Source of the DNA: Lysobacterales bacterium
GTDB lineage: Bacteria; Pseudomonadota; Gammaproteobacteria; Xanthomonadales; SZUA-36
DNA length: 13,504 bases
NCBI GenBank assembly: GCA_030637665.1
Contig: DAOWGA010000114.1
Location: forward strand, 1-13,504
Direction: 5' to 3'
The notes under the pieces were generated by a model. That model was not told the DNA's origin. It saw only the letters and a list, made by a program, of their open reading frames with translations, and searched no databases. Shown piece after piece: positions 42-13,504 of the stretch (its first letter is position 1; each line of letters opens with the position of its first letter). Made by a program: the position numbers and the translations under genes.

Positions 42-638
42 CTAGTAATCCTCCGGGTCTCCGACGATGGACGAGCCCCGCTTGCCGAAGTCGGCGGTGA
101 CGTAGGCGTCCGAGATGGAACTGCTCCCATCGGCCAGGTCGAACTCCAGCTTGTAGGACAGGTGCTCGAACCACGGGTTCAGGCCGGCGATACCGATGCG
201 CAAACGCCGCAGCTCCGCACCGTTCTCATCAACGAAGGAAGGGATGTCGTACGAGGCGATGTCGCCTTCCACGCGGCCGAAAACCTGGAACTGTCTGCCC
301 AGCAGCAATTTGCGCAGCAAGTAGGCGCCCTGTGCGTTCTCTGCGATGGCCAGCGACGACTCCTGGCGGTTTTCAGCAGGCAGGGCGCCTGATTGTTGCG
401 AGGTGTCAGGATCATCCGCAGATTCTTCAGCGGCCCCGTCCACGCCTGTACACCGCTCCCCGGCCTGCCCCTTTGCCGCCCCGGCTGCACCGTTGGGCGG
501 GCCAATTGGGCAGTCGCTCATCGTTTGCGCCTCGTCAGGCGAGGCCGGCGCTGTGGTAGCGGCAAACGCGCCCGGGACTACGTTCAGGGCCAGGCCGGCG
601 ATGAACAGAAGCGTCACGAATTGGGTTGGGGTCTTCAT
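42..638 (-). CDS. N-terminal part of an OprO/OprP-like porin, stopped early by in-frame TAG (probable pseudogene)
   Basis: This 198-residue product starts with a signal peptide (MKTPTQF, hydrophobic core, cleavage near GAFA-ATT). An acidic, Ala/Gly-rich linker of about 70 residues with two cysteines follows. From about residue 110 it resembles the N-terminus of phosphate-selective porins O/P: FQVFGRVEGD, then NGAELRRLRIGIAG, LSYKLEFDLADG and ISDAYV. Members of that outer-membrane beta-barrel family normally run to roughly 400 residues, so more than half is missing. The stop is TAG at 44-42. Reading on in the same frame to the window edge gives IRSPTTGSLSQLF, which aligns without gaps to the family's segment after VGxxxxPF. 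I therefore see a nonsense mutation, read-through or a base error as likelier than a natural end. I chose the ATG at 638 because it begins the signal peptide. An upstream extension to 800 in the same frame has no signal character. The Shine-Dalgarno sequence is weak. Substrate cannot be assigned. Confidence 0.62.
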   Translation of the reverse strand: MKTPTQFVTLLFIAGLALNVVPGAFAATTAPASPDEAQTMSDCPIGPPNGAAGAAKGQAGERCTGVDGAAEESADDPDTSQQSGALPAENRQESSLAIAENAQGAYLLRKLLLGRQFQVFGRVEGDIASYDIPSFVDENGAELRRLRIGIAGLNPWFEHLSYKLEFDLADGSSSISDAYVTADFGKRGSSIVGDPEDY

Positions 639-680
639 CGCTTGATGTTGAGGGCACTTTGCTTGCGTTCTCCCATCCTG

Positions 681-700
681 GGTGCGGGCCGCCCGCGACC
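681..700 (-). other. GC-rich inverted repeat in the porin leader
   Basis: On the minus strand this reads GGTCGCGGGCGGCCCGCACC. GCGGG and CCCGC pair around a three-base loop, and GGT/ACC pair outside with one bulged C. It lies about 45 bases upstream of the porin ATG. No run of T follows, so it is not a standard terminator. A leader-RNA hairpin or a protein-binding palindrome are both possible. Confidence 0.35.
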
Positions 701-712
701 ACCCGATGCGAC

Positions 713-742
713 GGGGTATCTGCTCATCCAAATGGATGCCCC
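713..742 (-). other. Imperfect hairpin in the porin leader
   Basis: GGATG (734-738) and CATCC (725-729) pair perfectly around a four-base loop. GGGG (713-716) and CCCC (739-742) pair outside, with an eight-base bulge on one side only. With the hairpin at 681-700 it would give the porin mRNA a structured 5' leader. I match it to no known riboswitch class. Confidence 0.3.
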
Positions 743-810
743 GCCACTGTAAAGCCACCACGATACCAGCCTCGGCGAAACAAAACCCGTTTCTATCCAA
801 GCTTCAGCCT

Positions 811-961: not shown

Positions 962-2452
962 TTAATCCACTACCTTGATCCACTGGCCGTCGCTCGGTTC
1001 GCCATTAGGGTATTCGCCGTTCAGTAAGCGCAGTTGCTCTTCCTGATACTCCTCCAGCGGGCTGTACCTGCCGAGTTGTTCGAAGGTCAGTCCGGGGCTG
1101 GCTTGCAAGTACCTGATTTTTCGGGATAGGGCGAGAATTTTATCCGCCTCGCTAAGGGGCCGAAAACTGGATATGGATGAAACGAAAAGCGTGTCATAGA
1201 AACGTTTCAGGACCTCGTTGTCGGCTTTGGCCAGGAACACAAACGCTCGCCCGCGGTGATAAATGACCGCAATTCGCTGTATTGTTTCGCCCTCTTTCAG
1301 GCCGCTATAGCCGGTGAGTTCGCCCATGGTCAGTTCTTCTGTTTCCCGCAGGTCAGTAATGCCCAGTTTTTGTTCGACATATTGCCTGGGCGTCAGGTCC
1401 TTGATTCCACTCTTGACCCGCAGTTGGATGACAGCATTGTCATCGGGCCCCGTCGCCTGAACGGCACTGGCGCCTTTTTTCACCTCCCAGCCGGTGGGGA
1501 AGGCCACGGTAAAGTCCAGGCTCCGGTGGTAATAGCGATTGCCAATGATCGCGCTGACCAGACTTTCGTCCGAATATTTCAACAGATCGAGGCGTTGCCG
1601 AAATTCCGTATTGTCGTTTCTGATTTCCGGGCCGGTCTTGACTGCGTCGGCATTCTTGATGACGTTCTGCAGGCGCTGGTCATTGCGTGGGTGAGTAGAA
1701 AACAAGCCGTGGTAACCCTGGTATTTTTCTCCTGTCTCCCTGGCTTTCAGGCGGCTGAAGTTTTCGTGGTCCTTGAGAATGCCGATGACTTCTGCCGTGG
1801 CTTGCGGATCATAGCCTGCCTGAGCGAGATAAGCGGCGCCCAGTTCATCCGCTTCAAGCTCCATATCACGGCCATAACCCCGAACCAGCGCCGTGCTTGC
1901 AAGCGAGGTAGCACCAAGCACTTCGTTGGCGGCTACTGAGCTGCCGGTCTGGTAAGCGACCAACGCAGCCAATATGTTGGAAACTGCATTGGCGGCGGTG
2001 CCCGCAGTCTTTTGCCGTGAAGCATGGCGAGCTGCAATATGCCCGATTTCATGGGCAAGTACGGCCGCTAGTTGTGCTTCCGTGGTCATATAGGCCATCA
2101 GTCCACGGTTAATGTAGACGTATCCTCCCGGTGTCGCGAATGCATTGATATCGTTACTGTCGATAATGGTGAAATGATATTCCAGGTGGGGCCGGCTGCT
2201 TTTTTGCGCCAGCTCCTTTCCAATCCGGCCCACGTAATTCTGCAATTCCTCGTCATAATAGATGGGCATTTTTTGCAGAATTTCAGCGTGCATTTCTGCG
2301 CCGATTTCTTTCTCTTTCTTTTCCGACAGGGAGAATACGGATTGCGCGGCGGACAGGTCTGGCGCAGGCAGAAACGGGCTTGCGCATAACATCAGCAGCC
2401 ATAACAGGACTGGCCGGTAGCCGATAATTCCTGTTGCATTTTTTACTGCCAT
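962..2452 (-). CDS. M48-family periplasmic zinc metalloprotease with C-terminal LysM-like tail
   Basis: The zinc-binding HEIGH motif sits at residues 134-138 of this start, and the third-ligand segment ELEAD is near 198-202. Other M48 hallmarks are NAFATPGGYVYINRG before the motif, GYDP after the glutamate, and the FSTHPRNDQRL segment. The N-terminus has a signal peptide or anchor (hydrophobic VLLWLLML). After the protease domain comes a beta-rich segment (FTVAFPTGWEV) and a final stretch, LTFEQLGRYSPLEEYQ then LRLLNGEYPNGE, resembling the LysM-like end of the longer predicted Zn-dependent proteases. BepA-type members instead carry TPRs. The length of about 496 residues fits the longer type. 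It would cleave or quality-control envelope proteins in the periplasm. It is last in the gene series. A TTG at 2464, overlapping the upstream stop by four bases, is an alternative start adding four residues. I prefer the ATG at 2452, although neither has a strong Shine-Dalgarno sequence. Substrate is unknown. Confidence 0.88.
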   Translation of the reverse strand: MAVKNATGIIGYRPVLLWLLMLCASPFLPAPDLSAAQSVFSLSEKKEKEIGAEMHAEILQKMPIYYDEELQNYVGRIGKELAQKSSRPHLEYHFTIIDSNDINAFATPGGYVYINRGLMAYMTTEAQLAAVLAHEIGHIAARHASRQKTAGTAANAVSNILAALVAYQTGSSVAANEVLGATSLASTALVRGYGRDMELEADELGAAYLAQAGYDPQATAEVIGILKDHENFSRLKARETGEKYQGYHGLFSTHPRNDQRLQNVIKNADAVKTGPEIRNDNTEFRQRLDLLKYSDESLVSAIIGNRYYHRSLDFTVAFPTGWEVKKGASAVQATGPDDNAVIQLRVKSGIKDLTPRQYVEQKLGITDLRETEELTMGELTGYSGLKEGETIQRIAVIYHRGRAFVFLAKADNEVLKRFYDTLFVSSISSFRPLSEADKILALSRKIRYLQASPGLTFEQLGRYSPLEEYQEEQLRLLNGEYPNGEPSDGQWIKVVD

Positions 2453-2460
2453 TGGCTGTT

Positions 2461-3123
2461 TCAACCCGCGATGTTTTCTGTAAACATCAGTATGATCTGG
2501 TCGGCGATACTTTCGCAGACCCGTGATTTGACCCGGGCTATCAGCGGTATGGGTGCAATGAACGCAGGCATATACGAAGTGCCGGACGCGGACGCGCTGA
2601 GCCAGGCCACTGAATTGAAATTAGTAACATCCCAGATGGCAATCTCATAAGCTGCATCATCCTCCCACATGCCAAAGCCGAAGCAGGCTACGCCTGTCGG
2701 GCTAATCGAACAGGACATGCCCCCCAAACTATCGCCACGCTGGGTGGAACCTTCCACCCAGACCATATAGTGCAGGTTCATTGCTCTGATTTCGGCAGCA
2801 ATTTTCGGGTTTTCCATCATCAGGCGCAGCCGCTCTGGATTTAACGGTGCTGTACGAGGTTCAAACCAGGGGTAAAGGCGATTGATGAATTCAATTTCGC
2901 CAATGATATTCACGTCCTGCTCAACGGAATGGAGCTCTTTGGCGATACAGTCTATAAGGAAAGGTTCGGTTTCGTTTTGGCCGCTTTGCCTGCGCCCCAG
3001 TATGACCACTGAATCCTGGTCTGCCAGTTCGATCGGCGCCTGCCGGAATTCATTGATGGTGGTTGTTGTACAGCCGCTCATTACCAGGCAGCCAAGCACC
3101 AGTATCTGGCTGATCCTATTCAT
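2461..3123 (-). CDS. Conserved lipoprotein of unknown function
   Basis: This 220-residue protein starts MNRISQ and has a lipoprotein signal ending MSGC, giving a lipidated Cys18 followed by four threonines. The mature part has DSVVILGRR, LYPWFEPRTAPL, a segment YMVWVEGST, a Cys/Gly-rich loop ending GFGMWEDD, and GTSYMP near the C-terminus. I recognise the pattern as a recurring uncharacterised lipoprotein but know no function. The two cysteines in the loop before WEDD could form a disulfide. The ATG at 3123 is supported by AGGAG seven bases upstream (3135-3131). The start overlaps the end of the preceding lipoprotein gene by eight bases, suggesting translational coupling. A longer frame to 3225 would precede the lipoprotein signal with an unlikely extension. 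There is no Asp at +2 after the cysteine, so outer-membrane sorting is expected, though not shown. Confidence 0.8.
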   Translation of the reverse strand: MNRISQILVLGCLVMSGCTTTTINEFRQAPIELADQDSVVILGRRQSGQNETEPFLIDCIAKELHSVEQDVNIIGEIEFINRLYPWFEPRTAPLNPERLRLMMENPKIAAEIRAMNLHYMVWVEGSTQRGDSLGGMSCSISPTGVACFGFGMWEDDAAYEIAIWDVTNFNSVAWLSASASGTSYMPAFIAPIPLIARVKSRVCESIADQIILMFTENIAG

Positions 3124-3784
3124 TACTGATCTCCTGATGGTTGAACTGATTTTCCCCGGCAGTGCTGCCGATTGTACTTTCCAGCCATTGTGCGACTTCC
3201 GGCACTTTGGAAAAGCCGGTAACAAATGCTGCTCCGCAGTCCCTCAGCGCCATCACTGATGCCAGGTTGATAGCCTCCTTGCTTGACTTGAGAAAAGCAG
3301 TTGGTGTCTTGCCATAAACAGGCATTGTCCAGATTGCGATTGTCGAGCCATCGGGCGCCAGTAAATCGAATTGGTATTTGATCCAGACTTCGTAGATCTT
3401 GGCCTTGCTGGTCAGTGGCACGGAATACTCAACATCGGCTACCCGGGGTACCAGGATCGCATCCAGGCCCGCGCGTAAACTGGCGGGCTCTCCCCGTTCG
3501 AGAACTTGCACCTGGGTAAAAACAGCCGGCAATATCCGCTCAAACAGAGATACCTGCGCGCTGCCCAGATCAATACTGGTGTCATCGGCGCCCTGTACAT
3601 CTTTACTTTCGTCATAAACAAAATTGCGAAAGTTCTGCGGGTAGTAAACCCCCATATGTACAGGAATTGGCTCCACCAGCGGTGTGGGGAATTCGAGGAT
3701 GGGGCTTACCACGACTTGCGTGGCGCCACATGCCGCCAGGCAGGCAACAAATATACATGTGACTATCAGCCGATAAGTTTGCAA
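3116..3784 (-). CDS. Lipoprotein of unknown function with TTG start
   Basis: This 222-residue protein has a textbook lipobox, LAAC, with Cys19 after a hydrophobic signal (LIVTCIFVAC). The mature part begins ATQVVVSPI and contains VHMGVYYPQNFRNFVY, SLFERILPAVF and a beta-rich core (LVPRVADVEYSVPL, YEVWIKYQFDLL). The end is helical with AINLASVMALRDCGAAFV. Such short alpha/beta lipoproteins with an amphipathic C-terminal helix are common in envelope assemblies, but I cannot name a family. The start codon is TTG. It is supported by the very strong purine-rich site at 3799-3790, five bases away, and no ATG or GTG lies near enough to give a signal peptide. It begins 15 bases after the vWA gene and overlaps the next lipoprotein gene by eight bases, so it belongs to the same transcript. 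Confidence 0.8.
   Translation of the reverse strand: MQTYRLIVTCIFVACLAACGATQVVVSPILEFPTPLVEPIPVHMGVYYPQNFRNFVYDESKDVQGADDTSIDLGSAQVSLFERILPAVFTQVQVLERGEPASLRAGLDAILVPRVADVEYSVPLTSKAKIYEVWIKYQFDLLAPDGSTIAIWTMPVYGKTPTAFLKSSKEAINLASVMALRDCGAAFVTGFSKVPEVAQWLESTIGSTAGENQFNHQEISNE
3131..3135 (-). promoter_or_regulatory. Ribosome binding site deciding the start at 3123
   Basis: AGGAG lies seven bases before the ATG at 3123 and inside the end of the upstream lipoprotein gene. It supports this start over the longer frame reaching 3225. Confidence 0.65.
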
Positions 3785-3789
3785 AATTT

Positions 3790-3799
3790 CCTCTCCTCT
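3790..3799 (-). promoter_or_regulatory. Strong ribosome binding site for a TTG-started lipoprotein
   Basis: The minus strand reads AGAGGAGAGG, five bases before the TTG at 3784. It is the strongest Shine-Dalgarno sequence in the window and compensates for the rare start codon. It fills nearly the whole 15-base gap after the vWA gene. Confidence 0.7.
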
Positions 3800-4798
3800 T
3801 TACCTGAAGTCGTTCAGTCCCACAAAAGTACCACCGTTGTGGTAGCAGAGTTCACGCATCAGGGCGGCGTAGCGAATGGCCGTGGATTGCAGGTGCGATG
3901 GGGCAGAATAGAGCACCGGGAAGCCGACGGCGTGAATACGGACACGGCGCTGACCGCTCGCATCTTCGGCGTTAATGCGAGCGACGGTATCCAGGACGGT
4001 TTGAATGGAATTACCCTGGAAATCATCCCCGAAGACGTACAGGCTGATCTTCTTGTCACTCGAATAAAACGTACGAATGGCAGCCGTAATACCTTCCACC
4101 GGGCTGCTGTTGCTGAACGGGTTCCAGGTACGGATGCGCTGGATAATGGCCTTGCGACGCCCGGGTGTGTCCGGTATCCACTTACCCCGGTAGTGGGAAA
4201 ACATGTAATTCCCCATGTCGTTCATGATCTGTATGCCCTTGACTTGTGGATAAATGTCCAGGGTGGCGACAAGTTCCTTTTGCATCCGCGGCCAGGCGTA
4301 GCTGAACATACTCCCGGAGGTATCAATGATAAAAATCAGGTACTCACTGTCGACCGGAATACCCCCAATCAATGAATTCCTGCGGGTAAAGTCTTGCCCC
4401 AGCAAGCGTTCCATTTCCGCGGTGAGTTGTTGCCGGGCAATTTCCAGCTCTCCCTGGGTGATTATGTTGGCCGTGGATTGGCTTTTAGTTGCCGCAAATT
4501 GACCTTTGATGGCGTTCAGGTCTCCTTGCAGGCGCGCTATTTTCTCGCGCTGTTCTGAAAGCTGTTCCCGTTTTACGGTCAAATCGCGGTTCAGGATCGT
4601 GGTCTCACCCCGGATGGCAAATAACTGCTTCTGCAAATCCGCGACGATGCCTTCCAGATTCCGGGTTGCCTTCTCCAACACAATGGGCTCGGTGACCTTG
4701 GTGATCATCAGCAGCAGGATGATGGCCCCGAAGCCGCAGGCGATGACATCCAGAAAAGACAGACTGGTATCCTCTTCACTTCTTCTGCGTAATTTCAT
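3800..4798 (-). CDS. Membrane-anchored vWA protein with ExbD-like N-terminal helix (second of a pair)
   Basis: This 332-residue protein starts with a short basic cytosolic tail, MKLRRRSEED. Then comes SLSFLDVIACGFGA leading into a membrane helix (about residues 14-33), a coiled-coil stretch (about 40-130) and a vWA domain (about 150-332). The metal-ion-dependent adhesion site looks intact: DTSGS at 159-163, a Ser/Ser pair near 231 in the usual Thr position, and an Asp pair in YVFGDD near 258. The FLD before the helix matches the FID of ExbD, whose Asp is the proton-carrying residue, so I infer a channel partner for the ExbB-like protein encoded nearby, with the vWA domain in the periplasm. 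The ATG at 4798 overlaps the preceding vWA gene as ATGA, indicating coupling and perhaps equal synthesis. A longer frame to 4855 only adds sequence overlapping that gene. The vWA ligand is unknown. Confidence 0.88.
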   Translation of the reverse strand: MKLRRRSEEDTSLSFLDVIACGFGAIILLLMITKVTEPIVLEKATRNLEGIVADLQKQLFAIRGETTILNRDLTVKREQLSEQREKIARLQGDLNAIKGQFAATKSQSTANIITQGELEIARQQLTAEMERLLGQDFTRRNSLIGGIPVDSEYLIFIIDTSGSMFSYAWPRMQKELVATLDIYPQVKGIQIMNDMGNYMFSHYRGKWIPDTPGRRKAIIQRIRTWNPFSNSSPVEGITAAIRTFYSSDKKISLYVFGDDFQGNSIQTVLDTVARINAEDASGQRRVRIHAVGFPVLYSAPSHLQSTAIRYAALMRELCYHNGGTFVGLNDFR

Positions 4799-5886
4799 GG
4801 CCAATCCCTCGATGGGCTCAGGAACGATCCGCCGGTAGCCTGGGCCAGGCGCCAAAAGGCGGATGCAGCCATGTAATCACCTTCCATCGGAGCAAGGATG
4901 ATATTTACCGGTATTCCAGTGGGCAGTTCCTGCAACGCCTGGTTGTAAAGCTGGAGGCGTTTTTTACCCGAAACAGTGAGTCCCTTGGCGCCTTTGCGGC
5001 CCTGAGTCGGCAGGCCGTCGGTGATCAGGTAAATATTATCGGGCCTGGGAACCAGATTGCCCACCTCCATGAAGGCGTCCTCCAGACTGGTGCCGCCGTT
5101 CGGGACAATGTCTGACAGGTTTTCCACGGCCTCGTTTAGTTGTTCGCTATCGTTAATGGGCAACCACTGTCCCAGCGTGCCCTCAATTGACGCCGAAACA
5201 TCGGTGTTAAATGTATATAGCTGGTAATCGCTGTTCTTCGGCAATTGAGCCGCCAGCCAATCAACTGTCGCCACGGCGCGCAGCCACTTGGCGCTGTTTT
5301 TACGGGTAGCTTCCGGCATATTGCGCATTCGGATGATGTTGACGATGCTTTCGTCCAGCATGCTGGCAGACGCATCGAGCAGGATGAGCAGCCTCCGGCC
5401 TCCCAATTTCAGGCCGGTCAGGTATTGCCGGTCACCCTCACCCAGGAATTGCCGCACATTTTCCCCATCCTGTTGCTCTCCCTGGGCTGCCAGGCGCTCA
5501 CTCTCTTCCTCCAGATTCTCAAGCTCGGTTTGCAATTGATTGATATGGTCAATCCGGGACAGGGAATCTTCCTTGAGCTCAGCCATTTCCTCCCTGGACT
5601 GCAGGGCTTCGTCGATGATGCGGCGCGCCAGCCCCTGGGCTTCGGCCATTTGCTGGTCGACGGCGGCGATGGTATTGCGGACTTTCACCCGCCGGTCCTT
5701 TCCTTCCAGCACTTCTTCTTCGAGCAGCGAAACCTCGGCAAGGAGATCGTAGTTGACCTCCTCAAAATGCACATCGCTGGCGTGGTCGATAATCAGGTAC
5801 AACAACACAACGGCGCCTAAGCCACAGGACATGATGTCCAGAAAGGACAGGCTGAAAGTGGTGGGTTTGCGTTTACGCCTTGGCAT
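4795..5886 (-). CDS. Membrane-anchored vWA protein with ExbD-like N-terminal helix (first of a pair)
   Basis: This 363-residue protein starts MPRRKRKPTT, then SLSFLDIMSCGLGA leads into a membrane helix (about residues 13-33). An acidic coiled coil with many Glu and Leu residues follows (about 45-140), then a vWA domain (about 160-363). The metal site is complete: DASAS at 171-175, GGTS near 264-267 and LITDG near 288-291. The N-terminal layout is the same as in the next gene (shared SLSFLD, then CG, one residue, GA), but the vWA domains differ strongly, so this is an old duplication or a recruited pair, not a recent copy. FLD aligns with the ExbD FID, implying a proton-channel aspartate. It overlaps the Hsp70-like gene by 14 bases at its start and the second vWA gene by four at its end. 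The ATG at 5886 is the only start that fits the basic N-tail. The Shine-Dalgarno sequence is weak, so coupling is likely. Confidence 0.88.
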   Translation of the reverse strand: MPRRKRKPTTFSLSFLDIMSCGLGAVVLLYLIIDHASDVHFEEVNYDLLAEVSLLEEEVLEGKDRRVKVRNTIAAVDQQMAEAQGLARRIIDEALQSREEMAELKEDSLSRIDHINQLQTELENLEEESERLAAQGEQQDGENVRQFLGEGDRQYLTGLKLGGRRLLILLDASASMLDESIVNIIRMRNMPEATRKNSAKWLRAVATVDWLAAQLPKNSDYQLYTFNTDVSASIEGTLGQWLPINDSEQLNEAVENLSDIVPNGGTSLEDAFMEVGNLVPRPDNIYLITDGLPTQGRKGAKGLTVSGKKRLQLYNQALQELPTGIPVNIILAPMEGDYMAASAFWRLAQATGGSFLSPSRDWP

Positions 5887-7207
5887 CGGGGTTGACCCGT
5901 ATCAGTTGCACCGGCTGTCCCTTGAGAGTCAGGCTCAGTGAGTCACCCACGGCCAATGCGGGTATCGGATCACCGCTGCTCAGGGCCAGGCCATTCAGCC
6001 AGATACACGCATCACCAAAAATCTGCAGGCACAGCTTGTCATCCTGCAGGCCGAGCGTGCATTGACTGTTTGACTGTCTTTGCCGCCGGCAGCTCACGCC
6101 ATGGTCGGTATCTTGCAGAAAGCAGGCGGCCGTTAATGGGTAGGCGGTAGAATTCACCAGTACATGGGTAGCTGACGGGGATGCCGGCGGTATCGTTGCA
6201 GCGGCCACGGGCCTGGCCTGCAGCGAACCCTTCATTGCGGGCAGGCGGGTTACAAAGCTGACGGCCGCCCCTTTGGAACGGACGAGGCCGGCATGCTCCA
6301 GGCATGCCCTGGCTGTCGTGTCTGCTGTCAACAGAAGGCTGCCTGGCGAAAAGGTTTCTACGCCCGGGACCGCAGACCACTGGTGGCCCAGCAAGCTGCG
6401 GTCGATGACGGAGCCCATGGTTGCTGCCCGATCGAGCAACTGCTGCCAGGTTTTGGCGCCGACTTGCAATAACGACTCACGCTCGACCCGGGCACGATGA
6501 ACGCTGCTGCCTTGCGGCACTTCGAGATCAACCAGTAAATTACCTCGGGACAGGTATTGCGGTATGTGATCGTAAATGTACTGCTCTGTCGTCGCGCTGT
6601 GCAGAGGATCGAAGCGACACTGTTCGATAAACGCGTCGGCGATGATGTGTGCCCATCGATCATACAGGGATAACAGGCCGGCTCCTTCCACAGTCTGTAC
6701 CGCTTCGCGAATTATTTCACCGGCCACTGAGAGCTTTGTCAGCACAGCCTGGTGGAGTTGCAGGTCAATGTGAACGATATCGTCGACCAGTTCGACACCT
6801 GCGGCTGCAGCGACCGCGGCATCCACCAGTCCGACGGCCTGGAACGGACACTGCCTGGCTACGCCCAGCAGCACCGACAACTGCTGATTACTGAAATTGC
6901 CAGGGACAGCAAAAATGACTTCTTCGGGTTTGCCAGCCAGTTCGTGCAGGTGTAACAGATGGGCATATGCCAGGTCTGCATGGTGTCGCACTACGTCACC
7001 GGAATGGCTTATGGGGTCCATGCCCAAACGCTGCCAGAAGCGGTTATTCAGTTGCTGCGGATGAAGCCTGGCCTGGGCCTTCGCAGCTTCACCGACCACC
7101 AGTTTTGCCCCCTGAACAAGAGCGTAACCCGGGCTGCTGATGGGCTTCAGTTCTGCCGAACTGGCGACTACGCCGATATCATTGAGTTCGATAATACAGG
7201 GAGACAT
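5873..7207 (-). CDS. Degenerate Hsp70/actin-fold protein with C-terminal FHA-like domain
   Basis: This 444-residue protein has no signal peptide or membrane helix, so it should be cytosolic. Residues 96-137 carry an Hsp70-like segment: VIFAVPGNFS (compare TVPAYF in DnaK), then VGLVDAAVAAAAG in place of INEPTAAALAYG. The ATP-phosphate loops are altered. The N-terminal IELNDIGVV replaces the Gly-rich IDLGTT, and HIDLQLHQAVL (147-157) replaces DLGGGTFDVS. ATP hydrolysis is therefore doubtful and the protein may be a pseudo-chaperone or scaffold. The last 60 residues (CIWLNGLAL, then LAVGDSLSLTL) follow the end of an FHA domain, with its NG turn and GD strand. I see no clear phosphothreonine-binding Arg/Ser pattern, so the FHA call is tentative. 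The start ATG at 7207 lies five bases after the ExbB-like gene, and the end overlaps the first vWA gene, so it is embedded between channel and vWA genes. Confidence 0.75.
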   Translation of the reverse strand: MSPCIIELNDIGVVASSAELKPISSPGYALVQGAKLVVGEAAKAQARLHPQQLNNRFWQRLGMDPISHSGDVVRHHADLAYAHLLHLHELAGKPEEVIFAVPGNFSNQQLSVLLGVARQCPFQAVGLVDAAVAAAAGVELVDDIVHIDLQLHQAVLTKLSVAGEIIREAVQTVEGAGLLSLYDRWAHIIADAFIEQCRFDPLHSATTEQYIYDHIPQYLSRGNLLVDLEVPQGSSVHRARVERESLLQVGAKTWQQLLDRAATMGSVIDRSLLGHQWSAVPGVETFSPGSLLLTADTTARACLEHAGLVRSKGAAVSFVTRLPAMKGSLQARPVAAATIPPASPSATHVLVNSTAYPLTAACFLQDTDHGVSCRRQRQSNSQCTLGLQDDKLCLQIFGDACIWLNGLALSSGDPIPALAVGDSLSLTLKGQPVQLIRVNPDAKA

Positions 7208-7212
7208 CGGAG

Positions 7213-8010
7213 CTATTTAGTCCTCAGGTGGGCCATCAGGTTGTTTTCACAATACTGCTGGCTGTCAATGACCATTCGCTCCTGGTGCAGTTGCAGCTGG
7301 TACATGAGGAACATCACCAGAATACTGATCACCAACGCGATAAAAGTAGAGTTGAAAGCTACACCCAGACTTGCGGTTACGCCCGAAATATCGCCTTCTA
7401 CGGCGCGGTGCGCCTGTCCCAGGGCCGACCCGATACCGCGAACGGTGCCGATAAAACCGATGGAAGGTATGGCCCATGCGATATAGCGGATCATGGACAG
7501 TTCGGAATCCAGGCGATCCGCTTCGCTCTCACAGGTTTCCTTGATGGAGGTAGAAACATCCTGGATGTTGTGGGTCGAGCCGAAGCGCTGCAAGCCGATC
7601 AGCAGGGCGCGCGGCAACAGGCTGCTGCGCTCCTCCTCGGGCAAGGCCTGCAGTGCGCGGGAATGCTCGCGCGCATCCTGCGGCAGGATGCTCATTCCAT
7701 CTGAAACATTGATAAAACGCCGCTCCAGCAAGGAGCGGTCCTTGCTGATGGTTCTGGCTTTGTATCCCATCACCGCTATGGCCCAAAACATCAGGATGAA
7801 ACAGGTTTCCTGCTCATAATCCTTGAGAATCACAAAGAGGGAGCGTGATGGTTCGAAGGCCTGGCCCGCCGCCTCCAGCGCAGCCTGTTGTTCCAGAATG
7901 GCATCGGCATTGGGGCGTATCAGGCCCACGTAAAGTGTATGTACCACAATCACTGAAATTAACAGCGCCGCCAGTTGGTAAACAAACTCGGTTGAAAGAT
8001 TACGTTTCAC
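7213..8010 (-). CDS. MotA/TolQ/ExbB-family proton channel protein
   Basis: This 265-residue inner-membrane protein has helices at about 12-30, 69-84, 172-197 and 211-239. The family signature IPSIGFIGTVRGIGSAL (181-197) contains the conserved Thr of the channel lining (compare GLFGTVIGI in ExbB). VTASLGVAFNSTFIALV (211-227) corresponds to the TAMGLFVAIP helix. Family members form pentamers that surround two ExbD/MotB-type helices and convert proton or sodium flow into movement. No classical ExbD, TolR or MotB follows. The likely partners are the two vWA proteins with ExbD-like N-termini encoded 1.3 kb downstream. An extra N-terminal helix pair with a periplasmic loop (about 31-68) before the signature resembles four-helix MotA more than three-helix ExbB. 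The start codon is GTG, with AGGAG nine bases upstream (8024-8020). It is 30 bases after the small acidic protein gene. Confidence 0.9.
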   Translation of the reverse strand: MKRNLSTEFVYQLAALLISVIVVHTLYVGLIRPNADAILEQQAALEAAGQAFEPSRSLFVILKDYEQETCFILMFWAIAVMGYKARTISKDRSLLERRFINVSDGMSILPQDAREHSRALQALPEEERSSLLPRALLIGLQRFGSTHNIQDVSTSIKETCESEADRLDSELSMIRYIAWAIPSIGFIGTVRGIGSALGQAHRAVEGDISGVTASLGVAFNSTFIALVISILVMFLMYQLQLHQERMVIDSQQYCENNLMAHLRTK

Positions 8011-8019
8011 AATATGTTG

Positions 8020-8024
8020 CTCCT
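8020..8024 (-). promoter_or_regulatory. Ribosome binding site for a GTG start
   Basis: AGGAG lies nine bases before the GTG at 8010, in the 30-base gap after the small acidic protein gene. It supports a GTG start for the ExbB-like protein. Confidence 0.55.
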
Positions 8025-8040
8025 GCGGGCCAGAGGCTCC

Positions 8041-8328
8041 TTAAATATCGACGGGGAAAGGCACGGATATATCCTCGGATATTTCCTCGGTGGGAATAAA
8101 TCGACTGGGAGGCGTTTCAACATCGATAGGAATCGGTTCCGATTGCTCTGTTTCCTGTTCCTCAGTTTCCTGTTGTTCAATTGCCGGCTGCTCAGATTCG
8201 GCCTGATCTGATACGGCTTGTTTGTCAGTCTCTTGCACCGGCGTTTCGTCACCGGTTTGGGCATCCAGTGCTATCGGAGTCCAGATCAGGCTGGCGCCAA
8301 GCAGCAAAAGGCAAGCTCTAATAAACAT
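8041..8328 (-). CDS. Small secreted acidic Glu/Gln-rich protein
   Basis: This 95-residue protein has a signal peptide (MFIRACLLLLGASL, cleavage probably near LDA-QTG at about residue 23). The mature part is about 70 residues, almost all Glu, Gln, Asp, Ser, Thr and Pro (EQQETEEQETEQSEP), and is predicted to be disordered. It ends in a more ordered-looking tail, PPSRFIPTEEISED followed by SVPFPVDI at the very C-terminus. The tail's mix of acidic and hydrophobic residues suggests a docking peptide for a partner, and its position between the FGE/PEGA gene and the ExbB-like gene suggests a small accessory subunit. The ATG at 8328 overlaps the end of the preceding gene by 11 bases, with AGGA upstream. 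The same frame stays open to 8610, but that part only shadows the FGE-domain gene. No function is known to me. Confidence 0.72.
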   Translation of the reverse strand: MFIRACLLLLGASLIWTPIALDAQTGDETPVQETDKQAVSDQAESEQPAIEQQETEEQETEQSEPIPIDVETPPSRFIPTEEISEDISVPFPVDI

Positions 8329-10429
8329 AACGTGCAATCCTGAAGCCAACATCGTCACGTGCCTTGTCGCCATAATCCCGGAAGGACAGGCGCAATTCGA
8401 CCACCGTTCCGTGACGCCAGCTGGAATCGCGAATAACGTGGAATCCACCTTGGTCCGGGCCCATCGGATTCGTTTCGATTCTCCCACTGGCCTTGGCGAT
8501 CTGGCCGTAGAAATCATGAATCCATTCTGACACATTGCCGCCCAGGTCATAAAAGCCGGCGGCAGTGGGGGAAAAACTACCCACCGGTGCAGTAACTGCA
8601 AAACCATCATCGTAATCGGGGACTATCCGCCCCAGCATGGACTCTGCTGAGCGGTCGGCGAAATTTCCGGCCTTGCCGGCTGGTGGAAACTGATCGCCCC
8701 AGGGGTATTTAAGCAGGCCTTCAACTGTGACTCGCGCAGCCCAGGCCCATTCTGCCTCGGTGGGTAAGCGATAGCCCGTGGCCTGAACGTCAAATTCCAG
8801 CAGTTGCTCGCCGGAAAAACGATAGGCGGGAGTCAGTCCGTCACGTTGACTCAGCCAGTTGCAGTATTGGGCGGCTTCTTCCCAGCTGACGCCTACCACC
8901 GGTTGCTTGTCGCCGTTCAGGCTGTAGCGACCGGCTCGTGCCGAGGAATGGTCGGGCTTGAACAGCCGGAATTGTGCGTTGGTCACCTCCCGGGTTGCCA
9001 GATAAAAGGGGCGGGTGAGGTCCATTTCACGTAAAGATTCGTTGGCGCGGCGCCCCGCCTCCCGCCGCGATGCACCCATGGTAAATCGGCCTGCGCGAAT
9101 CAGTTTCAGGGTCTGACCCGCTGATGTTACCAACTGCGGCTTGACCGCATCCCATTTCGCCTGTTCTTCGGTTTTCAGAACGACATCGATCTGCTGGGTA
9201 AAACCGGGCTTGGGAGTCATCGTTGTTTGATAATCAACATAGCCTGGCTTGCTGATGGTGATGCGCTGGGGCACCGCAGGCAATTGAATTTTACCACTGC
9301 CCAATTCAGTCTCCCGGCCATTGACGCGGATGGTGGCATCTTCGGGTTGTGTGCGGATAACGATTTCACCCAATTCCGCCCGCAGTGTCAGCGTCAGCGT
9401 CTGTTGCCGGCCGGAGACAATGGTCACAGTTTTCCTGGCGCTTAGGTAACCGGTCTTGAAGGCTTCGATTTGATAACTCTTGCCGGGCGCCAGTTTCAGC
9501 TCCAGCTCGGAACGGCCCGCAAACTGCTTGTCAACCAGAATGTTGGCATTGCCCGGGTGTGTGGTGACGAGTAATTGCCCATCCAAAACTTTCAATTCGA
9601 CTGCCGGCACCGCCACCACTTCATTGGCTGGAATTTCCAATTGGGTTTCCCAGCTTTTGTATCCAGGCAGTGTCAGGCGGATGTCGCGCTTGCCCTGAAG
9701 TAATTCCAGTGTTGCCGGGGTAAGTCCGCGCTCTTCGCCATTTACGCTGATGGCAGCGCCCGGTGGTGTGCTTTCAAAGGAGACTTCAGACCATGCCGGT
9801 TGCAACTCGGCGGTGAGGTCAAGCCGCTGACCGCCACCGGTCAGGCTCAATAATTCGGAGTAGACCTGATAGCGCGGGGCAGTCAATTCCAGTGTATGCT
9901 CACCGCTGGGCAGTTCAATGTCACTCAACGGGGTTTGCCCGACTGGCTGACCGTCAATTCTGACGCTCGCCTCGCTTACGGGTGAGCTGTTGATGCTCAA
10001 TATGTCCGGCAGCAAAACCAGTTGAAATTCAAATTCCTGCCCGGATTCAGCCGTCACCAGAAAGGGTTCTCGCAGGGGGTAATAGCCTTCCGCTGCAGCC
10101 TCCAGCGTGTACTCGCCAGGTAGCAGCAGGTAGCGATTACCCACTGGCAAGACCGGTCCGCCATCTATGTTCAACTGTTCCACCAGTGGGATAGTATCGA
10201 TGGTAATGGACCTGGCCGAGAACAGGAAAAAGATGATGGGTAAGCAGGCCAACAGTGCAATTGCAACTGCAACCAAAGGCCGACTGGGTTTGAAGCGGCG
10301 TCCCCCCGGCCGGCCGGTTGGGGGTGTAAATTCGGCGGGTTCAATGGCCTTGTGCCCGCCATTGTCCTCCACTGAAGGAATCGACAGGTCATCCGGCTGA
10401 TTGCCTGTTGGGTCAGATTCGTTCTTCAC
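8318..10429 (-). CDS. Inner-membrane protein with PEGA-like repeats and C-terminal FGE-sulfatase-fold domain
   Basis: The product is 703 residues from a GTG start. A cytosolic tail of about 50 residues precedes one membrane helix (51-73). About five PEGA-like beta repeats follow (roughly 78-140, 143-209, 214-282, 285-350, 354-420), recognisable from the recurring pattern of LPSGEHTLELTAPRYQ and LTLPGYKSW and from TPPGA, HPGNA and QPEDA turns. The FGE-sulfatase/SUMF1 domain spans 438-703, with GRFTMGASRREAG, PVVGVSWEEAAQYCNWLS, GYRLPTEAEWAWAAR, YPWGD, GFYDLGGNVSEW and DDVGFRIAR. The two copper-binding cysteines of true formylglycine-generating enzymes (SYMCHRSYC in human) are replaced here by SSWRHGTVV, so sulfatase activation is unlikely; a binding or structural role is more probable. 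The domain should be periplasmic. The GTG at 10429 overlaps the TPR gene by 17 bases. The same frame is open to 10642, but that part overlaps the TPR gene and looks non-coding. The start is the least certain point. Confidence 0.85.
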   Translation of the reverse strand: MKNESDPTGNQPDDLSIPSVEDNGGHKAIEPAEFTPPTGRPGGRRFKPSRPLVAVAIALLACLPIIFFLFSARSITIDTIPLVEQLNIDGGPVLPVGNRYLLLPGEYTLEAAAEGYYPLREPFLVTAESGQEFEFQLVLLPDILSINSSPVSEASVRIDGQPVGQTPLSDIELPSGEHTLELTAPRYQVYSELLSLTGGGQRLDLTAELQPAWSEVSFESTPPGAAISVNGEERGLTPATLELLQGKRDIRLTLPGYKSWETQLEIPANEVVAVPAVELKVLDGQLLVTTHPGNANILVDKQFAGRSELELKLAPGKSYQIEAFKTGYLSARKTVTIVSGRQQTLTLTLRAELGEIVIRTQPEDATIRVNGRETELGSGKIQLPAVPQRITISKPGYVDYQTTMTPKPGFTQQIDVVLKTEEQAKWDAVKPQLVTSAGQTLKLIRAGRFTMGASRREAGRRANESLREMDLTRPFYLATREVTNAQFRLFKPDHSSARAGRYSLNGDKQPVVGVSWEEAAQYCNWLSQRDGLTPAYRFSGEQLLEFDVQATGYRLPTEAEWAWAARVTVEGLLKYPWGDQFPPAGKAGNFADRSAESMLGRIVPDYDDGFAVTAPVGSFSPTAAGFYDLGGNVSEWIHDFYGQIAKASGRIETNPMGPDQGGFHVIRDSSWRHGTVVELRLSFRDYGDKARDDVGFRIARYVY

Positions 10430-11942
10430 ACTGGATGGCCATGTGCAGTGATTGGTTGCTCGGCGCAACCGTGAATTCCTTGCGCACGTCGCGGTAGCCC
10501 TCACGGCTGGCAACGATGACATAGTTTCCTGGTTTAAGCTCGAGTTCGCGGGTGGCAAAGCTGCCCAGTTGTGCCACCTTGTGCAAGGTGACCTGGGACA
10601 GATTATCTGAGCTGAAGGTAACCACAACCGGTGTAATGGCATCCTGTAGTTGCTGTTGCAGGGTAGTGATTTGCCGCTTGAGCCGTGGCCCGGGATTATC
10701 GATCGCGGTGGCTTTGCGGTAAAGCACCTGAGCGGCTTGCCAGATAACGTCGCTGGTCAGGCGTTGCGGACGGGTGGTTGCATCCTGCAGGGCTGCATCC
10801 AGTCTGGCGCGGGCCGCTGTTTCCTCCCTGCTCTGCAGGACCACAACCAGGTTAGCGTCAATCTCAAGCGCCTGGTTGTATTCCTTGAGTGCCTGCTGCC
10901 ATTCTTCCTGCGCGCGCAATTGTTCCGCCCTCTCAAGGTGGCCATTTATCGCGAAGACGTTTTGCTCGTTTTGTGCCTGTTTCAGCGCCTCCTGTGCTTC
11001 TGTTGCCTGCGCGTCCAGTTTGATGGCGGCCTGAAAAGCGGCAATGGCCGCGCTGTAGTTCCCGCGTCCGAGCGCCTGGTAGCCGGCTGACATCTGGCGG
11101 TTAAACTCGCTCTGGTCGAGCAATGCCCGCAAGCGTGCAATGGAATGTCCTACTGAGCCGCGCGCCGGGTCAAGCCCGGCGACTTGCTGTAGCGTCGCCA
11201 GCGCTTCGATCATACTGCCGCTTTTTTCAAGCTCCCCCGCCCTGGCCAACAACTGCCGGACTTTGTCCACGACACTGGCGCGTTGCAGTCCCTGTAGCGC
11301 TTGCGGATTGTCGGGCTCAATGATCAACGCCAGTTCGAAGGCACTTGTTGCGGCCGCCGAGTTTCCGTCCGCAATATTCGCGTTGCCGGCCGAAATGGCA
11401 TCTGTCAGCGCCTGCTCCTTCTGCGCCAGCAAGTGTTCCATGAGTTGCAAGCCTGCTTCATAGGAGGTCAGTGCTGCCTCAAACTGCCGGTTGCGGTAAT
11501 GCTCATCGCCCTCATTAGCCAGCGCCACAGCCCGCGCGAAATCTTCGCCGGCCCATTGCACCACTGCAATTTCCTCGAGTTGAAACTGGCGGTCCAGCAG
11601 CTTTTCCAGCAAATCCTGCGCGGCTGTGCGCTGTTTACGGAGTTGGGCTTCCTGCCAGGGGGAGGCGTCCGGCTTGCCTTGAGGCACTTGTAAGCCATTT
11701 GATGGCTGATCACTGATTATGTCAGGTGCTGCCGGCTTTTGGATGTGGCTCGGCAATAACAGGATTACCAGCAAGGCAAGGCCAACCAGGCCGCCAAACA
11801 GGATCCCCAGCCAAAATGCTTTTCCAGCCTTTTTGTCATTTTGCGCTTCATTATCACCAGGACGGGCAGAACTAAGCGTCAGGTCCGCTGGCTGTATCTG
11901 GACAAAAGCTGTGCTGTCCTCACTGCGATCGTTATGTCCCAT
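10413..11942 (-). CDS. Membrane-anchored TPR protein with C-terminal PEGA-like domain
   Basis: This 509-residue protein has an acidic cytosolic N-tail of about 40 residues (MGHNDRSEDSTAFVQ), one membrane helix (about 43-64) and a Pro-rich linker. From about 135 to 380 come tetratricopeptide-type helical repeats, clearest at YRNRQFEAALTSYEAGL, GNSAAATSAFELALIIEPDN, LGRGNYSAAIAAFQAAIKLD and EEWQQALKEYNQALEIDANL. The last 70 residues (VVVTFSSDNLSQVTL, then LELKPGNYVIVASREGY) form a beta domain very like the PEGA repeats of the next gene product. It should be anchored in the inner membrane with TPRs and PEGA in the periplasm, acting as a scaffold. The PEGA-like ending shared with the neighbouring FGE protein suggests the two interact or arose from shared modules. 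The ATG at 11942 lies 18 bases after the lipoprotein gene, and the end overlaps the next gene by 17 bases. Confidence 0.85.
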   Translation of the reverse strand: MGHNDRSEDSTAFVQIQPADLTLSSARPGDNEAQNDKKAGKAFWLGILFGGLVGLALLVILLLPSHIQKPAAPDIISDQPSNGLQVPQGKPDASPWQEAQLRKQRTAAQDLLEKLLDRQFQLEEIAVVQWAGEDFARAVALANEGDEHYRNRQFEAALTSYEAGLQLMEHLLAQKEQALTDAISAGNANIADGNSAAATSAFELALIIEPDNPQALQGLQRASVVDKVRQLLARAGELEKSGSMIEALATLQQVAGLDPARGSVGHSIARLRALLDQSEFNRQMSAGYQALGRGNYSAAIAAFQAAIKLDAQATEAQEALKQAQNEQNVFAINGHLERAEQLRAQEEWQQALKEYNQALEIDANLVVVLQSREETAARARLDAALQDATTRPQRLTSDVIWQAAQVLYRKATAIDNPGPRLKRQITTLQQQLQDAITPVVVTFSSDNLSQVTLHKVAQLGSFATRELELKPGNYVIVASREGYRDVRKEFTVAPSNQSLHMAIQCEERI

Positions 11943-11960
11943 CGTCTGGCTAATGAATAA

Positions 11961-13157
11961 TCATAAATCGGTGTTGCTGATGCTACCGTCTCCCACTTCG
12001 GAAACATATATGTCGCGTAAAATTACTCGCCATTGTTCATATTGGTCCTGTGCGGTTCCTGTCAGGGTAACTGTTCGGTCTTCCAGTTCAATAACCTGAG
12101 GGCCGACTTCGGCACTCAGGGAAGCCCCAAGTTCCTGTAGCGCCTCGGCATGAATCGATGATTCCAGATGCTTGTCCATCGCATTCTTGATCAGCCAACC
12201 ACCCCCGACCACCGCCGCGCCGCCCGCAGCTCTGACAGAGCGATTGCCGCTGCTGGCTGCCAGTATTCCGGCGATCATTGTTGCAGCACCGGCAATGGCA
12301 TTCTTTCTGGAACTGCTGCGCAGTTCGTCGTAGGCTAACACCTCCTCGTAGCTGTTCCGGAGCCACTCCTGGTAGGGTTCTTCCATTTCACGCACAAATG
12401 AACCGTAGTAATCCTGCAAGGTATCGATATACAGGTAATCACGTTCACGAATCCTGTGGATCCGTTCCATCATCGGATCGTTGTCTGCCGGTAAGCGCTT
12501 GAAAATGTAAATTCCCTTTTTATCCGTTGCCAGGTACCCTCCAAAGGCTTCCGGGGAAAAACTCTCGGCGAACCTCAATTCCGCGATGGTGCGTATTTTC
12601 TTGACTTGTACACTCGACAGCTTCTTGCGATAACGTGCAATGTCATTCGCAATGCGATTGTAAATATCCTGATAAGGGTCCTGGTTGTGGTTCCTGCCGG
12701 CCTCGTAACTGAATTTGCTGGCCTGGGCACTGTACGTTTTTTCAAACCACTCAAGCCCGGTTGCGTCACTGACCCTGATATTCAGCGACATGCTTTCACC
12801 ATCGGAGTGCAAAATTTCACCCGCGACGATGACATCGACCGAACTGGTGTCCCTGGGAATAATTCGTACTGCGCCCCAGTTGGCGCTGGCCTGCATGGTA
12901 TCCATCAACTGGTAGGGCATATACCTGGCTTCGGCCAGGCGAACTTCGGGGTAAGCGGTGATATCGTCTTCCTTGATATATTCGAGGCCCGGATTGAACA
13001 ATTCAATCCCGACATCCACCAGCTGTTGTTCCGGGATATTGTGGTCCCCCCGCTCGACCGGTGTCACCGCAGTTGTCCTGACCGTGGTGCTGCTGCAGCA
13101 AGCGAGCAACAACGAAAGCAAGATAATGGGGGTGAGTTTCAGGGATCGACGTATCAT
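11961..13157 (-). CDS. Large lipoprotein with glycine-zipper segment, function unknown
   Basis: This 398-residue protein has a lipoprotein signal ending LLACC, with lipidated Cys20 (or Cys21) followed by SSTT. Residues about 45-180 form an alpha/beta region: VDVGIELFNPG, RYMPYQLMDTMQ, WGAVRIIPRD, DVIVAGEILHSDG and LNIRVSDATGLEWFEKTY. The last resembles the way small lipoproteins describe a value in terms of variants, but I cannot name a family. A helical, aromatic-rich stretch follows (IDTLQDYYGSFVREMEE). A Gly/Ala-rich segment at 286-326 (AIAGAATMIAGILAA, AAGGAAVVGGG) looks like a glycine zipper that could insert in a membrane. The last 70 residues (IELEDRTVTLTGTAQDQY) are polar. The ATG at 13157 lies 19 bases after the stop of the preceding gene, with no strong Shine-Dalgarno sequence. 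Position suggests an outer-membrane-side component of the same assembly. Confidence 0.82.
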   Translation of the reverse strand: MIRRSLKLTPIILLSLLLACCSSTTVRTTAVTPVERGDHNIPEQQLVDVGIELFNPGLEYIKEDDITAYPEVRLAEARYMPYQLMDTMQASANWGAVRIIPRDTSSVDVIVAGEILHSDGESMSLNIRVSDATGLEWFEKTYSAQASKFSYEAGRNHNQDPYQDIYNRIANDIARYRKKLSSVQVKKIRTIAELRFAESFSPEAFGGYLATDKKGIYIFKRLPADNDPMMERIHRIRERDYLYIDTLQDYYGSFVREMEEPYQEWLRNSYEEVLAYDELRSSSRKNAIAGAATMIAGILAASSGNRSVRAAGGAAVVGGGWLIKNAMDKHLESSIHAEALQELGASLSAEVGPQVIELEDRTVTLTGTAQDQYEQWRVILRDIYVSEVGDGSISNTDL

Positions 13158-13176
13158 GATTTCACTGGCTGCCTAA

Positions 13177-13504
13177 TCACTTCTGTTTGTACTTGCGATA
13201 TTCTTCCCACAATTTCTCGCGCAATTCGGGGTCAGTTTCCGCCATGGCGGCTTCTCGTATCTGCCGGGCCACCACATCATCATCGGAGCCATCGGGAATG
13301 TCGGGTGGTATATCATCTGCTGAGGCAGTATGGCGATAATCGCCCTGCCGCCGGCTGCCGGGAGACGCCGGTATGCCACCCTGCCCACTATCGGCAGGGT
13401 CGTAAGCGCCTGCTCCCGGGATTCCGGCCTCTGTGCCTTCTCCGCTACCCTTTTTCCCTGCCTCACCATCCAGTTCCCCCAGTGGCGAGCCATCGGCACC
13501 GACA
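13177..13504 (-). CDS. C-terminal end of a Gly/Asp-rich protein, cut by the window edge
   Basis: This frame is open from the window edge to TGA at 13179-13177, showing 108 residues and no start. The first 60 residues are Gly/Ala/Asp/Pro-rich (VGADGSPLGELDGEAG, PGAGAYDPADSGQGG) and look like a disordered linker. The last 45 are compact: ADDIPPDIPDGSDDDVVARQ, then IREAAMAETDPELREKLWEEY followed by RKYKQK. The end therefore has an acidic run followed by an amphipathic helix with alternating charged and aromatic residues, which looks like a conserved functional tail. I recall similar tails in uncharacterised gammaproteobacterial proteins but cannot name the family. A different frame over the same bases (13173-13499) is open but gives a Trp/Pro/Arg-rich nonsense-looking product, so I reject it. 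The gene lies 19 bases upstream of the lipoprotein gene and probably starts, or continues, the same transcript. Confidence 0.7.
   Translation of the reverse strand, partial: VGADGSPLGELDGEAGKKGSGEGTEAGIPGAGAYDPADSGQGGIPASPGSRRQGDYRHTASADDIPPDIPDGSDDDVVARQIREAAMAETDPELREKLWEEYRKYKQK

Follow-up and report, generated by a model that had tools for sequence, protein, structure and literature searches.

A conserved gene cluster around a TolQ-like, paired-vWA motor core as a probable ion-driven trans-envelope machine of Gammaproteobacteria

The gene cluster

The DNA analysed here, called the window throughout, is the entire 13,504-nucleotide (nt) contig DAOWGA010000114.1 (C49) of a fragmented Lysobacterales genome (assembly GCA_030637665.1; 1.97 Mb, 351 contigs, 77% complete). 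On its minus strand, 11 complete genes and one truncated gene are arranged head to tail, which bears out an earlier note on this sequence that had described a packed minus-strand gene series. From 5' to 3', the genes encode a Ser-rich lipoprotein ("pre"), LppA, TPR-PEGA, PEGA-FGE, a small acidic secreted protein (the mini-protein), an ExbB-like protein, an Hsp70-like protein, vWA1, vWA2, LppB, LppC and an M48 protease, where FGE stands for formylglycine-generating enzyme and the names LppA, LppB and LppC were coined in the present analysis. The features of the window are as follows, all on the minus strand.

13177..13503, minus strand: C-terminal part of the Ser/Gly/Pro/Gln-rich lipoprotein pre, truncated at the contig end, with the conserved tail DDDVVARQIREAAMAETDPELREKLWEEYRKYKQK
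11961..13157, minus strand: LppA lipoprotein, with an N-domain of predicted FlgT/PelC/CsgG/TolB-N fold, long helices and a hydrophobic hairpin
10413..11942, minus strand: TPR-PEGA-like protein (Pfam TPR_2, E 9.8e-10; PEGA under cut-off)
8318..10429, minus strand: protein with four PEGA domains and an FGE-like domain (Pfam PEGA, E 1.5e-47; FGE-sulfatase, E 1.7e-42)
8041..8328, minus strand: small secreted acidic protein of 95 residues with the C-terminus FPVDI, recognised by tail conservation
7213..8010, minus strand: motor subunit of the ExbB/TolQ type, carrying Thr189 and Thr222 (Pfam MotA_ExbB, E 7.9e-15)
5873..7207, minus strand: Hsp70-fold protein, an optional module whose nucleotide motifs are degenerate and which ends in a small, beta-rich, FHA-like domain
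4795..5886, minus strand: vWA1, with a membrane helix bearing Asp17, a coiled coil, a vWA domain with a metal ion-dependent adhesion site (MIDAS) and a DWP C-terminus (Pfam VWA_2)
3800..4798, minus strand: vWA2, with a membrane helix bearing Asp17, a coiled coil and a MIDAS vWA domain (by alignment)
3116..3784, minus strand: LppB lipoprotein of unknown family (by alignment; no match in a PDB sequence search)
2461..3123, minus strand: LppC lipoprotein of unknown family (by alignment; no match in a PDB sequence search)
962..2464, minus strand: BepA-like M48 metalloprotease with HExxH, the facultative end of the cluster (Pfam Peptidase_M48, E 8.5e-40)

Promoter and terminator scans of this locus gave sites no more numerous than in shuffled sequence.

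Conservation of the gene set

A scan of genome contigs with the window's ExbB returned at least 584 relatives, from which the best 80 loci by ExbB similarity were used. These are mostly named Pseudomonadales, Cellvibrionales and other Gammaproteobacteria, and include Microbulbifer, Halioglobus, Exilibacterium and Porticoccus. Gene order was counted in the 50 of these loci that span at least 20 kb. The nine genes from LppA to LppC were all present, on one strand and in the window's order in 49 of the 50, the sole exception (L075) having LppB and LppC reversed and upstream. Each of pre, LppA, TPR-PEGA, PEGA-FGE, ExbB, Hsp70-like, vWA1 and vWA2 was found in 50/50 loci, LppB and LppC in 49 each, M48 in 35 and an upstream TPR gene in 47, and no further open reading frame (ORF) cluster occurred in more than 13. 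Median gaps between most neighbours run from -10 to 30 nt, and the gap from PEGA-FGE to ExbB (median 308 nt) contains the mini-protein gene.

Co-occurrence of vWA1, LppA, the Hsp70-like gene and LppC was assessed in one sample of 200 genomes of the same order. vWA1 is present in 26 of them and LppA in 24, with 23 strong LppA matches all falling within the 26 and a weak, partial one in G049; the locus sits at a contig edge in all three vWA1-positive genomes without LppA (G142, G161 and G178). The Hsp70-like gene is found in 19 genomes (18 vWA1-positive, and one weak match in G066). It is missing from seven of the 26 (G070, G117, G122, G127, G132, G152 and G196), in which ExbB is followed directly by vWA1, and also from G178, at its contig edge. 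LppC occurs in 15 genomes, all vWA1-positive, and lies upstream on the opposite strand in five (G004, G016, G026, G034 and G082). In three genomes from one family of the order, a further LppA-like gene of greater divergence lies outside the main cluster (G004:C65, G016:C35 and G034:C63).

At class level, vWA2 matched in 36 of 369 genomes (28 at E 4e-81 or better), and at phylum level vWA1 matched in 16 of 398, of which 15 were strong and 12 came from one family outside the class. Loci from that family (L176-L179) and from other families of the class (L184, L185) hold pre, LppA, TPR-PEGA, PEGA-FGE, ExbB, vWA1 and vWA2. Hsp70-like, LppB, LppC and M48 are absent from all six, and the cluster is therefore divided into a core and an optional part; the available stretch stops shortly past vWA2 in L176 and L178, not in the other four. 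Among 72,556 plasmid records there was no match to vWA2 and there were four distant matches to ExbB.

Pairwise distances of the nine proteins correlate at 0.85-0.96 (median 0.91; 46 loci), as expected under joint inheritance. Distance and motif counts cover the ORFs callable in the best 80 of the at least 584 loci, and alignments A1-A9 consist of selected, mostly full-length rows (for example, 20 including the window against 71 vWA1 relatives available). The reading of the genes as one system is strongly supported: their order is conserved, they co-occur, their divergence is correlated and the core is kept in another class. The earlier note's claim of a single system thus withstood a neighbourhood check across genomes, which found the arrangement not unique to this one; its claim for the whole set holds for the core, with Hsp70-like, LppB, LppC and M48 proving optional.

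The motor core

The ExbB-like protein belongs to the MotA/ExbB/TolQ wheel family (Pfam E 7.9e-15) and aligns with TolQ/ExbB relatives at E 2.7e-7 (hhalign). In that alignment, Thr189 pairs with the threonine of the GTV motif and Thr222 with that of the AT motif; we take them to be the ring threonines, following PMC12204202. The corresponding motifs are well kept among relatives, with GTVRGI in 78/79 and FNST in 76/79.

The two vWA proteins are homologous (hhalign E 6.5e-21), and both begin with the membrane stretch S-F-L-D-x-x-x-C-G-F-G-A, followed by a coiled coil, which for vWA2 finds coiled-coil matches in the PDB. Asp17 is invariant in the 20 aligned vWA1 rows (A1) and the 24 aligned vWA2 rows (A2). 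The strict membrane motif occurs in 70/70 vWA2 and 58/71 vWA1 ORFs, at least some of the misses being ORFs called from a late start (such as L036 and L090). The MIDAS sequence DxSxS is found in 69/71 vWA1 and 70/70 vWA2 ORFs, and vWA1 ends in DWP in 71/71. A membrane aspartate in the axle helix together with a threonine ring in the wheel is the pattern of motors that run on proton motive force with 5:2 stoichiometry (roles of these residues as given in PMC12204202). The system is read as ion-driven because its putative wheel protein is related to ExbB/TolQ and because these threonines and membrane aspartates are conserved, and the earlier note's proposal of an ion-driven envelope machine is to that extent supported at the level of sequence.

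This motor core has a precedent. Heterologous pairs of vWA proteins beside tolQ-like genes without tolR or exbD have been described, starting from an Idiomarina query, and a TolQ-vWA pair was modelled independently with its Asp-bearing helices inside the Thr ring of the pentamer (PMC12204202; Mol Biol Evol 2025). The TPH-vWA motors of that paper have the same design by description, namely an Asp helix, a Thr ring and two different membrane-anchored vWA genes with no ExbD or TolR; the window likewise pairs heterologous vWA genes with a tolQ-like gene, without a Pfam ExbD match in the ten window proteins scanned. A TolQ-vWA core of this design is thus already predicted in print. Relative to those motors, the present locus adds a wider cluster, optional modules and the FPVDI mini-protein. 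The main text of that paper does not mention PEGA, formylglycine or Hsp70, and flanking genes may be drawn in its figures. For the cluster beyond the core, no describing paper was recognised among the matches listed, so that "undescribed", as the earlier note had it, is only partly right and would fit the surroundings of the motor, not the motor itself.

The secreted mini-protein and its tail

The mini-protein consists of a signal peptide (judged by eye), an acidic linker and the FPVDI end. It could be assessed in 73 of the 80 loci, those with PEGA-FGE and ExbB both callable and less than 900 nt between them. In 73/73 (within L036-L115), an ORF in this gap ends in [FYLM]P[VIA]DI, and in 58 it ends exactly in FPVDI. 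Across all locus sets, which overlap and are not 115 independent cases, such a tail lies just upstream of 110/115 ExbB ORFs. The five others are L182, where ExbB has relocated and the mini-gene remains behind PEGA-FGE with FPADI between FGE and Hsp; L150, with FPLDI; L183, reading MPSDI at the end of the stretch with the stop not seen; and L134 and L138, with no such tail within the locus stretch. When the 80 loci were read in six frames (2.81 million strand-bases), no more than 81 tails of this kind turned up. Synonymous codons vary freely at all five tail positions (for Pro, CCA, CCC, CCG and CCT), and it is therefore the peptide, not the DNA, that is conserved. In the family outside the class (L176-L179), the mature part is about 16 residues (cleavage site by eye) and ends in SFPVDI or TFPVDI.

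The Ser-rich lipoprotein follows a similar plan, with a low-complexity linker and then a conserved tail. Its tail pattern is kept in 60/69 relatives, and a simple regular expression found a lipobox-like pattern in 40/61 of the longer ones. Both tails resemble docking peptides. An acidic ligand residue is the classical partner of a MIDAS site, and TPR clamps bind C-terminal carboxylates; we propose that the mini-protein tail may dock to vWA or TPR domains, either of which would fit. The Mdn1 MIDAS has been reported to form catch bonds (PMC8837202). If this proposal is true, the mini-protein, conserved for the sake of its five C-terminal residues, would be a rare docking element.

Envelope partners and optional proteins

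The LppA N-domain is predicted to have the FlgT/PelC/CsgG/TolB-N fold, its best matches being FlgT and an LPHT-ring chain. A hydrophobic hairpin rich in Gly and Ala is modelled with low confidence at about 285-330. LppA, LppB and LppC may share ancestry, with hhalign probabilities of 37-61%, but the LppA-LppB alignment begins in the signal peptide. Both PEGA proteins appear by eye to have a single membrane segment, N-terminal in TPR-PEGA; the start of PEGA-FGE is uncertain, its ORF extending to 10642. Catalytic cysteines of FGE sit in the C-terminal segment. In relatives of the FGE-like domain, 15/75 did not fit the pattern for this segment and Cys was present in 0 of the 60 segments recognised, on which ground an active formylglycine-generating enzyme was rejected.

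Among the optional proteins, the Hsp70-like one has the nucleotide-binding-domain fold in its predicted structure. DLGxGT and GGxTRxP, the Hsp70 phosphate and adenosine motifs, were each found in 0/74 relatives. The protein is predicted to be cytosolic, as neither a signal nor a membrane segment was seen. The M48 protease scores 139 bits against the BepA model, under its cut-off of 570. The upstream TPR protein of relatives has a TonB-like end (E 7e-8 to TonB).

Several other loci were noted in passing. At the left end of the window (42-800, minus strand) lies a possible outer-membrane porin fragment, judged by eye. A 3.6-kb contig of the same genome (C23; L275, 616-3615) holds a divergent M48, LppC, LppB and vWA2 end; it is either foreign or bears another copy of the cluster. 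Contig C335 of that genome (L276, 834-4582) holds an ExbB relative, two proteins beginning S-A-I-D-L-F-A-S-A-x-G-A and a possible FHA gene (by eye), which may be read as a paralogous motor of similar design. On plasmids, a distant ExbB with a membrane-Asp protein adjoins genes that by eye resemble those for FHA, PP2C phosphatase and two kinases in Rhizobium leguminosarum pRlBT01d (L272, 6958-23351), and a MotA/TolQ/ExbB-family gene lies directly 3' of type III-B CRISPR (Cmr) genes in Anabaena cylindrica pANACY.03 (L273, 579-12118).

Known systems and alternative readings

Unlike Tol-Pal, the ten window proteins scanned show no ExbD/TolR domain, Pal OmpA-like domain or TolB propeller in Pfam; contig C11 of the same genome carries TolQ and ExbD genes side by side as a separate pair. 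The flagellar stator MotAB with its FlgT/FlgP outer rings shares a homologous wheel family and the LppA N-domain matches, whereas the axle here carries vWA instead of an OmpA-like domain and the window has no flagellar genes. A further likeness is to GldK-L-M/PorKLMN of the type IX secretion system (T9SS), in which a proton motor is likewise combined with an FGE-fold envelope protein. The cluster could accordingly be a secretion or surface-motility motor of the T9SS or gliding kind, in which surface proteins are exported or moved through a ring and the FGE-like protein stands in for GldK/PorK. Ring-type lipoprotein folds add to that resemblance, and among NCBIfam models the FGE-like protein scores best against GldK/PorK. 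At 115 bits, however, this match is far under the cut-off of 350, the protein is an inner-membrane PEGA fusion, no other T9SS component appears in NCBIfam or Pfam matches of the ten window proteins, and the flanks hold no conserved cargo gene, the largest other ORF cluster reaching 13/50 loci. We regard such a motor as unlikely.

Slightly less likely still is a sensory or regulatory complex, in which a channel gated by proton motive force would signal the state of the envelope to the Hsp70/FHA-like protein in the cytosol. An Hsp70 fold without nucleotide motifs, encoded between ExbB and vWA1, would suit such a receiver, as would the FHA, phosphatase and kinase genes beside the distant plasmid ExbB (L272). 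Its gene, however, is absent with neighbours intact from 7 of the 26 vWA1-positive genomes, and also in the other class; it is therefore not the main output, and most cluster genes encode periplasmic proteins or lipoproteins. Zorya-like anti-phage defence, depolarising the cell or acting at the envelope, is very improbable. ZorAB has an ExbB-family wheel in common with the cluster, but PADLOC gave a weak ZorA match (E 9.5e-4) and otherwise only chance-like matches for the ten proteins, with none to ZorB, ZorC, ZorD or ZorE; there is no effector-like gene, and exchange is low, since nine genes keep a fixed order and diverge in step. A defence system was rejected on the PADLOC result; conflict systems with vWA, Hsp70 or FGE domains were rejected because their architecture, as described in passages of PMC7159879, is different. 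Just as improbable is a chance neighbourhood of envelope genes without joint function: Hsp70-like, LppB, LppC and M48 are indeed optional or displaced in some genomes, but the order and co-occurrence of the core speak against it.

A candidate trans-envelope machine

The genes probably encode one trans-envelope machine powered by an ion gradient, and the most likely form is a Tol-like machine driven by proton motive force with a heterodimeric vWA axle. What the analysis shows is the gene set, its conservation, the conserved residues and the predicted folds of two proteins; how the machine would be assembled and located, in what stoichiometry, whether it would conduct ions and exert force, and what it would do for the cell are inferred from these. 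The ExbB/TolQ-like pentamer would form the inner-membrane wheel, and vWA1 and vWA2 would each give one axle membrane helix with one proton-carrying aspartate; since each supplies one helix, the axle would be a built-in heterodimer. A coiled coil and a periplasmic MIDAS vWA head on each axle subunit would replace the peptidoglycan-binding domain of TolR/ExbD. Ion flow may rotate the heads or switch their state, so that they grip and then release partners: four lipoproteins (the Ser-rich one, LppB, LppC and LppA with its ring-forming fold), both PEGA scaffolds of the inner membrane and the FPVDI-ended mini-protein, together with, in most relatives, the periplasmic TPR protein with the TonB-like end. 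Much as Tol-Pal does, the machine would perform mechanical work on the outer membrane. The Hsp70/FHA-like protein would be a regulator in the cytosol, present in some genomes only, and the M48 protease would serve the machine in envelope housekeeping. More tentatively, and as a possibility we rate below even chances, this could be a distinct machine class in which MIDAS heads use their metal site to grip, under tension, the free C-terminal (F/Y)P(V/I)DI of the secreted mini-protein, or pass it to TPR proteins, and transmit force to an outer-membrane ring of TolB-N/CsgG-fold lipoproteins.

Some observations weigh against an ion-driven machine of this kind. The vWA membrane stretch matches the ExbD profile weakly (hhalign probability 2-3%), and Pfam found no ExbD match among the window proteins scanned. 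The 49/50 order figure comes from the best 80 of at least 584 loci by ExbB, hence from close relatives, and the distance correlations stand without a housekeeping-gene control. Foldseek found no LppA match at E <= 0.001, the best being TolB at 3.7e-3. Similarly, the TonB_C matches of the upstream TPR protein score 16-20 bits, under Pfam's 24.6, and its gene, sought otherwise only in relatives' loci, was not found in the window's own genome, where the search gave only a weak partial match (E 9.4e-4) adjoining canonical ExbB/ExbD.

Few routes are known by which energy is supplied to the outer membrane of Gram-negative bacteria. Around a recently predicted motor, the locus supplies the full list of parts in strict order; for the vWA transducers of that motor, PMC12204202 states that no deletion phenotype has been reported. 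The role of the putative machine thereby becomes open to testing by simple gene deletion in species that can be cultured, Microbulbifer among them.

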